DNA of 64,000 nt, taken from contig DWXC01000027.1 in NCBI GenBank assembly GCA_019119395.1, positions 62,001-126,000 of the forward strand. The letters run 5' to 3'. The translations under genes were made by a program, and so were the position numbers. The notes beneath the pieces are model-generated. The model worked only from the letters and a program-made list of their open reading frames with translations, was not told the origin of the DNA and did no database searches. Below, in pieces: positions 57,228-60,771 of this stretch (position 1 is its first letter; every line of letters starts with the position of its first letter). Source of the DNA: Candidatus Borkfalkia stercoripullorum (GTDB lineage: Bacteria; Bacillota; Clostridia; Christensenellales; Borkfalkiaceae).

Positions 57228-57272
57228 CCGAACGGCCGCGGTGTTTTGCACGGACATTGTAAAAAAGAAAAT

Positions 57273-57300
57273 CCCCGCCGATCGGCGGGGGTTTTTGATT
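57273..57300 (+). terminator. Terminator after the kinase gene
   Basis: CCCCGCC-GATC-GGCGGGG (57273-57290) followed by GTTTTTGATT; it abuts the 3' end of the convergent padR gene. Confidence 0.85.
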
Positions 57301-59167
57301 ATTGTCTGTTGCTGTTGTAATTGTAAAAGATCGCAAAGAGAGGAATGTTGAACGCAAAAATGACCGGCAGGATCGCATATTTGAGGATATGTACGAAATT
57401 TACGGGTGCGTTTATGCTGTCGATGATAAAGTAGGCGATCAGTACGATGACGATGATCAAATCGACGAAAATGATCAGGCTTGCCGAAAGGTAAGACCGC
57501 GATTGCGTCTTACGGCTGTTTTTTCCGTAGCCGCGCAGGTATAAAAAGAGAAATACGCCGAACATCACGAAAGTCGCGACGAAGGGAATGATCACGTAAG
57601 CTGCGTTGGAATCGATCGCGCCGCGGATGCACAGATTGATGATGCTTTCCGCGAGTGCGACGATAAACACGTACAGCGCGCTCATGAAAAGCGCTTTTCC
57701 CTTATCGAAAACGTTCCCTGCGTTTTTTGCGGCGGCCGTGCGGTTTCTTGCGCCGTTGGACGTCGTGATGCGTATGCCGTCGTTTTCCGCTTGCTCCTGT
57801 ATGTCGTAAAATTCTACGTTGCTTGCCGAAGATGCGTTGCTCGGAGGGGCTTGTTCGGGCGGCGCGGTTTGGTATTGATCCGCGGGGGGGACGGGCTCGG
57901 GCTGAGGCAATTCCTCGTATTGCGGTTGAGCGGGCGCCTGCGGTTCTTCCTCGGCATAGTAATCTTCGGGTTCGGGCTGTGCGTTGTCGTACAGGCGCGA
58001 AAGAAGATCTTTATAATTTCTCTCCGCGGGAGACCTGTTCGAATAAAGTATTTCCGAAGAAATTGCCCGGTTCTCGTCGTAAGGTTCGTCGTAATAGTTC
58101 GCTTGGGGCGGTTCTTCGTAAGCCTCCGTCTGTTCCCGGACGGTGTCCTCCGAATAAAACACGGAATCGGGTTCGGGGGAGACCGGTTCCTCGACCTGTG
58201 CCTGGCGGGCCGCTTGTTCTCTGTTGCTGCGGGCTACCTGCGCATAATAATAAGACGTGGCGTCTTCTTCGTCGCCGACGAGATTCCTGTAATTTTCGTG
58301 CTGGATACGGCGCTGTTCCTCGTCTATCCAGACATCGTGTTCGGCTTGGGCGGATGACGCCGCTTCCTGCGAGCTGCTCGTATCCTGCGCATAGCTTTCG
58401 GTATAAGCATAGCTGCTGCGCGCCGCGGCAGCCTGCTCCGCGTTTTGACGCGCTTCCGTTTCCGCTTCGGGCTCCTGATCTTCGGCCGGCTGCTCGTCTA
58501 CCGTCTGCGGGCCGATCGCTTCAGCGGCGGCGGGCTCGGCGTCGTTCGTCTCTTGCGGCGCGGCGCTTTCCTCGGGTGTATCCTCGTGCGCATGCTCCTC
58601 TTCGATCGATTCGGAGGGGGTGTCTGCGGCAGGGGAGAGGTTTTCCTCGGTTTTGTCTTCTTTTTTGTCCGCCGGGCCGCCCTCGGGGCTTTCAAAGACG
58701 GTAAGGTCGATATCGTCGTGGCCGAGGTCTCCGCCCGCCGTCGAGATCCGCGTCGTAGATTTTTTCAGGAGAGAAAAATCGACCGCGGAAGGCGGGGGAT
58801 TGTTGAAATCGTAATCTTTTTCCGAAATCAGGCTGTCGATGACCGTGCGGGAATATTCCCATTCCGCGAGGTTTTGCTCGACGATTTTTTTGCCTTTGTC
58901 GGTTATCTGAAAATACTTCCTGCGCCCGCCGTTGGAAACGCCGCCCCAGTAAGAGGTGACGTAGTCCATGCTTTCCAGTCGCTTGAGCGCGCTGTAAAGG
59001 GTAGGCTGTTTCAGGGAGTACTGTCCTTTGCTCTTTTCTTCGATTTCGTTGATGATTTCATAGCCGTATTTGTCGCCGTCGTACAGCGTACGCAATATGA
59101 TCGTGTTGATATGGCCGCGTATCAGATCGCTGCTGATCGCTGAGGAGTTTTCATTGGTAGGATCCAT
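57299..59167 (-). CDS. Membrane-tethered PadR-family transcriptional regulator
   Basis: 622 residues. The N-terminal ~105 are a complete PadR winged helix: IRGHINTIILRTLYDGDKYG, then YSLKQPTLYSALKRLESMDYVTSYWG and RRKYFQITDKGKKIV. Residues ~130-480 are a disordered, acidic E/P/A/Q-rich linker with many tyrosines. The C-terminal ~135 contain four hydrophobic helices (about 490-515, 525-550, 560-585, 590-615). PadR proteins are normally ~110-180 residues and soluble, so this one appears to be anchored in the membrane by a long tether. Own promoter overlaid with phased repeats suggests autoregulation. No obvious target operon or dedicated cytosolic partner is adjacent. Confidence 0.88.
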   Translation of the reverse strand: MDPTNENSSAISSDLIRGHINTIILRTLYDGDKYGYEIINEIEEKSKGQYSLKQPTLYSALKRLESMDYVTSYWGGVSNGGRRKYFQITDKGKKIVEQNLAEWEYSRTVIDSLISEKDYDFNNPPPSAVDFSLLKKSTTRISTAGGDLGHDDIDLTVFESPEGGPADKKEDKTEENLSPAADTPSESIEEEHAHEDTPEESAAPQETNDAEPAAAEAIGPQTVDEQPAEDQEPEAETEARQNAEQAAAARSSYAYTESYAQDTSSSQEAASSAQAEHDVWIDEEQRRIQHENYRNLVGDEEDATSYYYAQVARSNREQAARQAQVEEPVSPEPDSVFYSEDTVREQTEAYEEPPQANYYDEPYDENRAISSEILYSNRSPAERNYKDLLSRLYDNAQPEPEDYYAEEEPQAPAQPQYEELPQPEPVPPADQYQTAPPEQAPPSNASSASNVEFYDIQEQAENDGIRITTSNGARNRTAAAKNAGNVFDKGKALFMSALYVFIVALAESIINLCIRGAIDSNAAYVIIPFVATFVMFGVFLFLYLRGYGKNSRKTQSRSYLSASLIIFVDLIIVIVLIAYFIIDSINAPVNFVHILKYAILPVIFAFNIPLFAIFYNYNSNRQ

Positions 59168-59190: not shown

Positions 59191-59224
59191 ACAATATTAT
59201 ACAATATTTGACAATATGTGTCAA
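59191..59224 (-). promoter_or_regulatory. padR promoter with phased operator repeats
   Basis: Minus strand TTGACA (59219-59224), 17 bp, TATAAT (59196-59201). On the plus strand ACAATAT occurs three times at exactly 10-bp steps (59191, 59201, 59211), and TTGACA-N5-TGTCAA (59208-59224) is a perfect inverted repeat covering the -35 box. A probable autoregulatory operator. Confidence 0.75.
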
Positions 59225-59263
59225 GAGAAATTGCAAATTCATTAAAACATTTATCCGTATGCA

Positions 59264-59286
59264 AAGTACTATGCGTAATATAATCG
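59264..59286. repeat. Copy 3 of the dispersed palindromic element
   Basis: AAGTACTATGCGTAATATAA, a more degenerate copy, in the divergent region between padR and the thioesterase gene. Confidence 0.35.
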
Positions 59287-59402: not shown

Positions 59403-60134
59403 ATGAATATTGATACGATGACGCAGGAAAGCGTTATTAAAAATTATGAATCGGATTTTCTTCAGCGGATCAAACCGTCTGCGATACTCGGGCTGTTCCA
59501 GGAGATCGCTGCGGAACATGCGGAAGCTCTCGGGTTCGGCGATTCCGTGCTGCGCGGTCAGGGAATGTTCTGGGTTTTGTCCAAAATTTATGTTGAAATT
59601 GCCGAAAGACCCGTTTATATGCAAAAAATCAAAGTCGATACATGGCCGCACGCGCCGAACAAAGCGATCTTCGAAAGAAGTTTTTCGGTTGAGGACGGGG
59701 CGGGCAAACGGCTTGTTTCCGCCTTTTCTCGGTGGTGCGTGCTGAACGCGCAGGGAAGGGTCGTGCCCGCGTCTCGCATTTCCTGTAAGATAGGCTCTTT
59801 CCGCGAAGATAAGAGCGTTTTGTTTGAGGACTGGCTCGTTCCGGCGCCCGAAAAACGCGTTCCGGCGTTTTCTCTTCGCATCGCCAATTCGGAATACGAT
59901 CTGAATTATCATGTAAACAATATTAAATATGCCGACTATATTTTTAACTGTTTTTCGGTCAAGGAGTTGGAAGCGCGCAAACTGAAAAATTTCCAGATCC
60001 ATTACGTAAAGCAGAGTCATGAAGGGGACGTGCTCGATTTTTACAGGCAGGAAATCGGAACGGGCGTGTTTGCGGTGGAGGGCGTCAAAAACGGCGGCGA
60101 GACGGTCGTGACGGCAAAAATCTGTTTTGAATGA
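59403..60134 (+). CDS. Acyl-ACP thioesterase
   Basis: 243 residues, two hotdog halves. FLQRIKPSAILGLFQEIAAEHAE opens the first. The catalytic segment SEYDLNYHVNNIKYADYIF near residue 162 (Asn, His) is diagnostic of bacterial FatA/FatB-like enzymes. It releases free fatty acids from acyl carrier protein. Ribosome site AAGGGGATAAA. Overlaps the next gene by 8 bp. Confidence 0.9.
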   Translation: MNIDTMTQESVIKNYESDFLQRIKPSAILGLFQEIAAEHAEALGFGDSVLRGQGMFWVLSKIYVEIAERPVYMQKIKVDTWPHAPNKAIFERSFSVEDGAGKRLVSAFSRWCVLNAQGRVVPASRISCKIGSFREDKSVLFEDWLVPAPEKRVPAFSLRIANSEYDLNYHVNNIKYADYIFNCFSVKELEARKLKNFQIHYVKQSHEGDVLDFYRQEIGTGVFAVEGVKNGGETVVTAKICFE

Positions 60135-60771
60135 ATTTCGGTATACGCTCGTTCGGAGCCGCCGAAGAACGGTATCTCTCATCGTTCGGGACGGAGTTTT
60201 GGAAGTGCGCGCGCCTTCGGCCATGCCTGCGGAAAAGATCGACGCCTTCGTTTCGGAACACGCGGGGTGGATACGGAAGCAGTTTACGGCTTACGAGCGG
60301 CGCGCGGAGCGTTTTTCCTCGGTTCGGGAGGGGCAAACGATCCTGCTCGACGGGAAGGAATGCCCGTTGGTCTGCGGTGTTGCGAGAAATTCGGAAAAAG
60401 GCGGCACGGTCTATTTGAAAAACATGCGGGGCGCGCAGGCGTTTTTCATAAAGACGCGCGCGTTTTTGCTGGTCGAAAAGACGGCCGCGCTTTCGCGCCG
60501 CGCCGGGCTGTATCCCGAGGACGTGTCTGTCCGCGATTTCAAGGCGCGGTGGGGCAGCTGCGACGCGCAAAAGCGGATCAAGCTGAATTGGCGTCTTCTG
60601 ATGCTTCCGCCCGAACTGCAGGAATACGTCATCGCGCACGAACTGTGCCATATAGCGCACCTCGATCATTCTCCCGCGTTTTGGGCGGAGGTCGCGAAAA
60701 TCATTCCCGATTTCGCAAAGAGAAAACGCGCGCTCAAAGAGTATTCTTTTCTGACGCTTCTTTATCGGTAA
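60127..60771 (+). CDS. YgjP-like (DUF45) M48-type metallopeptidase
   Basis: 214 residues. HELCH (zinc ligands) near residue 176 followed by HLDHSPAFWAEV gives the HExxH-x-GxxH-like pattern. The RDFKARWGSCDAQKRIKLNWRL segment is the YgjP/WLM signature. Start is TTG 60127, which overlaps the thioesterase stop; the ATG at 60131 is in another frame. Biochemical role is uncertain (a UTP pyrophosphatase annotation exists for relatives). Confidence 0.85.
   Translation: MNEFRYTLVRSRRRTVSLIVRDGVLEVRAPSAMPAEKIDAFVSEHAGWIRKQFTAYERRAERFSSVREGQTILLDGKECPLVCGVARNSEKGGTVYLKNMRGAQAFFIKTRAFLLVEKTAALSRRAGLYPEDVSVRDFKARWGSCDAQKRIKLNWRLLMLPPELQEYVIAHELCHIAHLDHSPAFWAEVAKIIPDFAKRKRALKEYSFLTLLYR

Follow-up and report, generated by a model that had tools for sequence, protein, structure and literature searches.

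A PadR-family regulator predicted to be leashed to a four-helix membrane anchor in a gut Clostridia bacterium

The window (the whole 64,000-nucleotide stretch of DNA analyzed here) includes a gene of a gut Clostridia bacterium for a PadR-family regulator that is predicted to be leashed to a four-helix membrane anchor. Sequence comparison places the PadR domain, a linker and the four-helix (4TM) domain in a single chain that is conserved across one bacterial order. With a confidence somewhat better than even, we interpret the protein as a single-chain, membrane-anchored, one-component transcription regulator of the LmrR subfamily of PadR proteins.

Gene and Protein Architecture

The gene for the PadR-linker-4TM protein occupies positions 57299 to 59167 on the minus strand as a single uninterrupted open reading frame that starts with ATG and encodes 622 amino acids, and its orthologues in relatives are full-length. 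A σ70-type consensus promoter, TTGACA-N17-TATAAT, can be read for this gene at 59196..59224 (minus strand) and has equivalents in other members of the genus; a probable intrinsic terminator, apparently bidirectional and assigned to neither strand (CCCCGCCGATCGGCGGGG with T and A runs), lies at 57272..57297. The order of parts given in the preliminary description, in which a PadR domain is followed by an acidic linker and four hydrophobic helices within 622 residues, is borne out by the reading frame, the composition, the hydropathy and AlphaFold2 models.

Residues 24-96 match the Pfam PadR family (PF03551; E = 6.1e-18; score 65 bits, cutoff 27), and the nearest solved chains, which align with most of residues 1-126, are PadR/LmrR-type regulators (9qbc, E = 4e-29; 1xma; and LmrR, 3f8b). 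The Pfam match, these alignments and the AlphaFold2 winged helix-turn-helix delimit a winged helix with a C-terminal dimer helix at residues 11-118 (58814..59137, minus strand). In LmrR, Trp96 stacks on drugs inside the pore of the protein. The alignment to 3f8b places Trp103 of the window protein on this residue, and Trp103 is invariant in 27 sequences; the protein has the LmrR-like subfamily feature of a C-terminal dimer helix carrying a Trp at the ligand-stacking position. The DNA-recognition region is intact by sequence comparison. Judged from these matches, the PadR domain is intact and of the LmrR type, in agreement with the earlier view that the winged helix is canonical. It is also the best conserved part of the protein, with 42-94% identity among relatives versus 20-47% for the linker.

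The acidic linker (residues about 121-487, ~365 residues; 57707..58807, minus strand) is largely disordered by composition and by AlphaFold2 pLDDT, and its 317-residue core contains 76 Asp or Glu versus 20 Lys or Arg, together with 32 Pro and 43 Ala. The description of this region as a disordered tether holds for residues 125-278, where pLDDT is about 30-40, but has to be qualified for the remainder, which contains helical islands and a conserved motif. Helices are predicted by AlphaFold2 at residues 279-325, 361-396 and 453-462. The first (58193..58333, minus strand) carries a RIxHENYxxL motif and is conserved in the genus. The second includes the motif ERNYKDLLSRLYDN (residues 382-395; with its flank, residues 380-396, 57980..58030, minus strand), whose general form, [ND]Y[KR]xx(L/I/F)xx(L/I)(Y/F), recurs although the linker diverges. 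In a leave-family-out test, in which the motif was trained on other families and the held-out family was scored against within-protein shuffles, it was detected at p ≤ 0.05 in 43 of 57 held-out proteins. The motif lies mostly 190-260 residues from the C terminus, and we infer that it is a docking helix near the membrane.

The C-terminal hydrophobic block begins near residue 490 by hydropathy and is modeled by AlphaFold2 as four transmembrane helices (pLDDT of the four-helix model, 87.5), all encoded on the minus strand: TM1 (residues 489-518, 57614..57703), in which Glu507 is nearly invariant in alignment A4; TM2 (522-544, 57536..57604); TM3 (556-584, 57416..57502); and TM4 (591-621, 57305..57397), in which Pro601 is invariant and Pro609 and Tyr615 are conserved. 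Insertion of this domain into the membrane, like DNA binding by the PadR domain, is a prediction. In 41 of 41 relatives, the basic loop between TM2 and TM3 (residues 545-555; 57503..57535, minus strand) exceeds both of the others in basic character; it is predicted to be cytoplasmic and, together with a cytoplasmic PadR domain, it indicates an N-in/C-in topology. The extracytoplasmic loops are about 5-12 residues in length, too short for a sensor domain, and the suggestion that the protein senses an envelope signal in the manner of CadC or ToxR is therefore unsupported for extracellular signals. Any such signal would have to be either a bilayer property or a partner in the membrane, and sensing of the membrane itself or of such a partner is favored here.

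Pfam and NCBIfam gave no identity for the 4TM domain, only scattered weak matches to membrane families, and no transporter or channel family was matched. In a comparison with folds in the PDB, the best Foldseek E value was 1.8 and VIA Z scores did not exceed 6.6, which is undistinctive for a helical bundle; it should be noted that a missing PDB relative is not evidence of a new fold. A profile search for HAAS (PF22564) in the full protein and in 41 membrane domains was negative. Kinship of the 4TM domain to the HAAS membrane protein of the same genome was considered, and none was detected (hhalign probability of 0.5 on a scale of 0-100).

Distribution and Conservation

Among 24 genomes of the same genus, most match the long protein strongly, many over essentially its whole length in one stretch, and two (G002 and G007) match only a short PadR. 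The full frames in the genus are mostly 540-740 amino acids in length and have 4TM C termini. One congener (L014, in G020:C69) has an in-frame TAA after the PadR domain, which represents either a truncated form or a sequence error. A first profile of the 4TM domain alone matched 68 of the 248 genomes of the order; a more diverse profile (A4) matched 139 of the 248, usually with one copy each, a few of these 139 matches being weak and possibly false, and 126 of the 202 good genomes of the order. No credible copy of the 4TM domain was found outside the order among 391 genomes of the class and 398 of the phylum. The weak matches there, two in the class and one in the phylum, were judged to be false: one protein resembles a flippase, another is MatE-like, and the third stretch (G431) lacks an open reading frame. 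Within the order, the second match in G026, to a P-type ATPase, was likewise judged false.

A PadR domain is present at the N terminus in 61 of 64 loci of the order, in two batches with frames checked. The locus L108 (9316-10488, minus strand) retains the linker, including its motif, and the 4TM domain, with no PadR match in six frames; L141 and L147 also retain the linker and the 4TM domain and have N termini too diverged to score as PadR. In a sample of 60 genomes of the class, PadR frames outside the order are 90-234 amino acids in length, and in the window's family the lengths are bimodal, at 102-234 or 405-1119. The general statement that PadR proteins are small and soluble is upheld in size for this sample, with frames of up to 234 amino acids outside the order, but has to be tempered in that membrane coupling is known, in the HAAS-PadR dyad (PMC11237479).

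The preliminary description had identified a frameshift or assembly error, or homologues that end after the PadR domain, as what might undo its reading; orthologues in the genus and in other families are in a single frame, and most homologues continue beyond the PadR domain. That two genes have been joined by an assembly error or frameshift can hardly be credited: the stop between the parts in G020 is in its favor, but the same single-frame fusion occurs across the genus and in many families of the order, in independent genomes. The conservation, the frames and the survey outside the order together indicate that the fused architecture is not an error but a lineage-restricted, vertically kept invention, and by these sequence surveys the PadR-linker-4TM build arose long ago in a single bacterial order and has been conserved there.

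L108, L141 and L147, in which the 4TM domain is kept while PadR is lost or diverged, suggest that the membrane part may have another role, and to that extent they count against the preferred reading. The corresponding alternative makes the membrane domain the functional part, for example as a channel or small membrane protein, with PadR serving only to control its own gene and the lipid gene divergent from it; it is also favored by the conserved Glu in TM1 and the Pro residues in TM4. However, nearly all orthologues keep PadR, as their best conserved part, and matches to transporter or channel families are absent; we consider this alternative decidedly improbable.

Gene Neighborhood

The gene arrangement across families is mutS-mutL-miaA-ynbB / lexA-xer / YgjP-(acyl-ACP thioesterase) / gene / c12mem-rnhA-proC-rny-recA, with rearrangements; the names other than Acyl-ACP_TE, YgjP and PadR-HAAS-DUF4097 were read from the sequences by eye and are presumptive. 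In the window, the divergent neighbors on the plus strand are the genes for an acyl-ACP thioesterase (59403..60134; PF01643, E = 6.7e-21, and PF20791, E = 5.4e-9) and, in the same divergent pair, a protein with a YgjP-like metallopeptidase domain (60127..60771; PF01863, E = 2e-47). The YgjP gene adjoins the regulator in several families and, in some together with the thioesterase, is divergent from it in f1, f18, f19, f28 and f32. In several families a gene for a small membrane protein, c12mem (e.g. L082, L083, L088 and L094), is convergent with the regulator and adjoins rnhA. The window's genome also has a separate canonical PadR-HAAS-DUF4097 locus (L167:3-1475, in G000:C34), so that the two-gene system and the single-chain protein are both present in one genome.

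The adjoining YgjP gene, a long and exposed linker, and the natural truncation after PadR in one relative (G020) are all compatible with an ordinary PadR repressor that is kept at the membrane until it is set free, for instance when the linker is cut by regulated proteolysis, the free PadR being the active form. This has a low probability in our assessment: no conserved cleavage site was recognized in the linker, the strongest linker motif is near the membrane side and is retained even in PadR-less L108, and YgjP is without a known role of this kind.

Operator-like Element

An operator-like element, TATGCAAAGTACTATGCGTAATATA, is located in the divergent intergenic region at 59258..59282 (plus strand), as defined by a genus footprint and genome-wide counts. 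Members of the genus have TATATCnGACATAATACTTTGCAAA conserved some 100 bp before the start of the regulator; in reverse orientation this is TTTGCnnAGTACTATGnnnnnCATA, ~25 bp in length, at 59258-59282 of the window. Of 30 upstream regions from the genus, 29 match it, one of them twice. The element is ~40 bp upstream of the −35 box of the regulator and is oriented toward the divergent gene, and for these reasons it may regulate the divergent gene only. A related site is found ~30 bp upstream of the genome's only other PadR gene, in the PadR-HAAS-DUF4097 locus. The element might belong instead to a different regulator, the PadR paired with HAAS among them. It is kept in seven genomes in which the long protein is the sole PF03551 match (G088, G108, G142, G169, G182, G1043 and G1045). 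Operator-like sites also occur ~10 and 100 bp upstream of two genes that we take, by eye, to encode ZIP-like metal transporters (L166:1501 and L182:1501; G000 C32:104490 and C25:4282).

Copies of the extended element number 85 in G016, 43 in G1071, 23 in G1033, 21 in G088 and 11 in the window's own genome (G000), versus 0-1 per genome, and none in G016, for a reversed control pattern. In 400 kb of G016, of which 84-94% is coding according to a rough gene caller, 36 of 40 sampled copies are intergenic and most point at the downstream gene. In G016, G001, G1071 and G009 (loci L241-L300) the targets are promoter-proximal sites of unrelated housekeeping genes, some of them common to different species; by eye, the latter are presumably rdgB, a DUF2953-like gene, argJ and aroH. 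Two other identities of the dispersed element were considered and are unlikely: a −10 box, since the element abuts the ribosome-binding site in at least two genes, and an RNA hairpin, since on unscored inspection two variable bases change without compensation.

Genomes in which the PadR recognition region is of the HGQYxLKQPTLYSALKRLE type, or a close variant, mostly have 4-85 copies of the element, those with a GGLY-type region have 0-2 and those with an altered region have none, a relationship in which abundance and recognition region are correlated by ancestry and phylogeny is a confounding factor. Many genera have the long protein and lack the element, and in sister genera the copy number is near zero. 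The pattern agrees with the long PadR as the binder, as circumstantial evidence and not proof, and the membrane-leashed PadR may act at short DNA signals numbering up to about 85 per genome.

The dispersed copies bear on two further proposals. In the first, the membrane PadR would be a genome-wide organizer or global regulator that, on its leash of several hundred residues, acts at dozens of dispersed 25-bp operators in housekeeping promoters and couples the state of the membrane to both nucleoid position and gene expression; we regard this as unlikely. In the second, which we think improbable, the protein would be a nucleoid-membrane tether in the manner of Noc: the PadR domain would bind many dispersed sites, and the leash of 300-700 residues would hold the nucleoid, or active promoters, at the membrane, with transcription control secondary. 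The very long acidic linker of variable length, the near absence of an extracytoplasmic part, the up to 85 dispersed copies of the 25-bp element in a congener, and a single-copy, vertically inherited gene in housekeeping synteny are all in keeping with a tether. However, the copies, which are candidate targets of the long PadR, are promoter-proximal and mostly directed toward the downstream gene, which fits regulation, and their number falls to 0-2 in some genera that retain the protein.

Proposed Mechanism and Significance

In the preferred reading, that of a single-chain, membrane-anchored PadR regulator, the PadR domain would bind, in the cytoplasm, palindromic operators of the type TTTGCnnAGTACTATGnnnnnCATA. 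These would include the site in the intergenic region that separates its gene from the divergent acyl-ACP thioesterase-YgjP operon and, in some species, dozens more in the genome. The 4TM domain would read the membrane itself or a membrane partner and thereby alter how freely the leashed PadR dimer gets to DNA, and the conserved linker helix possibly passes the signal from the 4TM domain to PadR. The identity of the operator, the sensing of membrane state or partner and the transmission through the linker are all parts that we infer.

PadR regulators have been treated as small soluble repressors, and their coupling to the membrane has been described in the form of the two-gene HAAS-PadR dyad. 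One order of gut Clostridia has fixed a version that needs a single protein; its membrane domain belongs to no known family, its leash carries a conserved motif, and the gene has been retained in one copy per genome next to core genes for DNA repair and lipids. Should the dispersed element be bound by this protein, the regulator would be membrane-borne and its sites would span the genome, and how a membrane-fixed transcription factor finds DNA would become directly testable. No report of a membrane-fused PadR or a single-chain PadR-4TM protein, or of a PadR with a TAGTACT motif, was found among the openly available articles searched.

Comparison with Known Systems

CadC and ToxR have an OmpR-type winged helix, a single TM helix and an extracytoplasmic sensor domain. 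The window protein resembles them in combining a DNA-binding domain and a TM region in one protein, with no kinase, but differs in being of the PadR type, with no Trans_reg_C in its Pfam list, and in its four TM helices, its near lack of an extracytoplasmic domain and its much longer linker. The likeness to Noc is an analogy only, namely that of a DNA-binding protein joining the membrane to numerous dispersed sites; Noc, a ParB-like CTPase that has an amphipathic helix, is unrelated in sequence to the window protein. The LmrR-type repressors (3f8b, 9qbc and 1xma) share with it the winged helix and C-terminal helix, with Trp96 of LmrR at the position of Trp103, but are about 110-145 amino acids in length in the PDB and are without a linker or membrane domain.

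In the HAAS-PadR dyad (PF22564 and PadR), which has been proposed as an alternative to two-component systems, PadR is coupled to a membrane sensor encoded by a second gene (PMC11237479). The window protein is similar in having a PadR-type DNA binder, binding being predicted here, and a membrane part, but it is one chain in which PadR is not standalone, it has no HAAS match, and no relationship was detected between its 4TM domain and the membrane portion of the genome's own HAAS protein. With a predicted DNA-binding domain and at least one TM region in one protein, it corresponds to the membrane-bound transcription regulators that have been described as a widespread class (PMC10269533).
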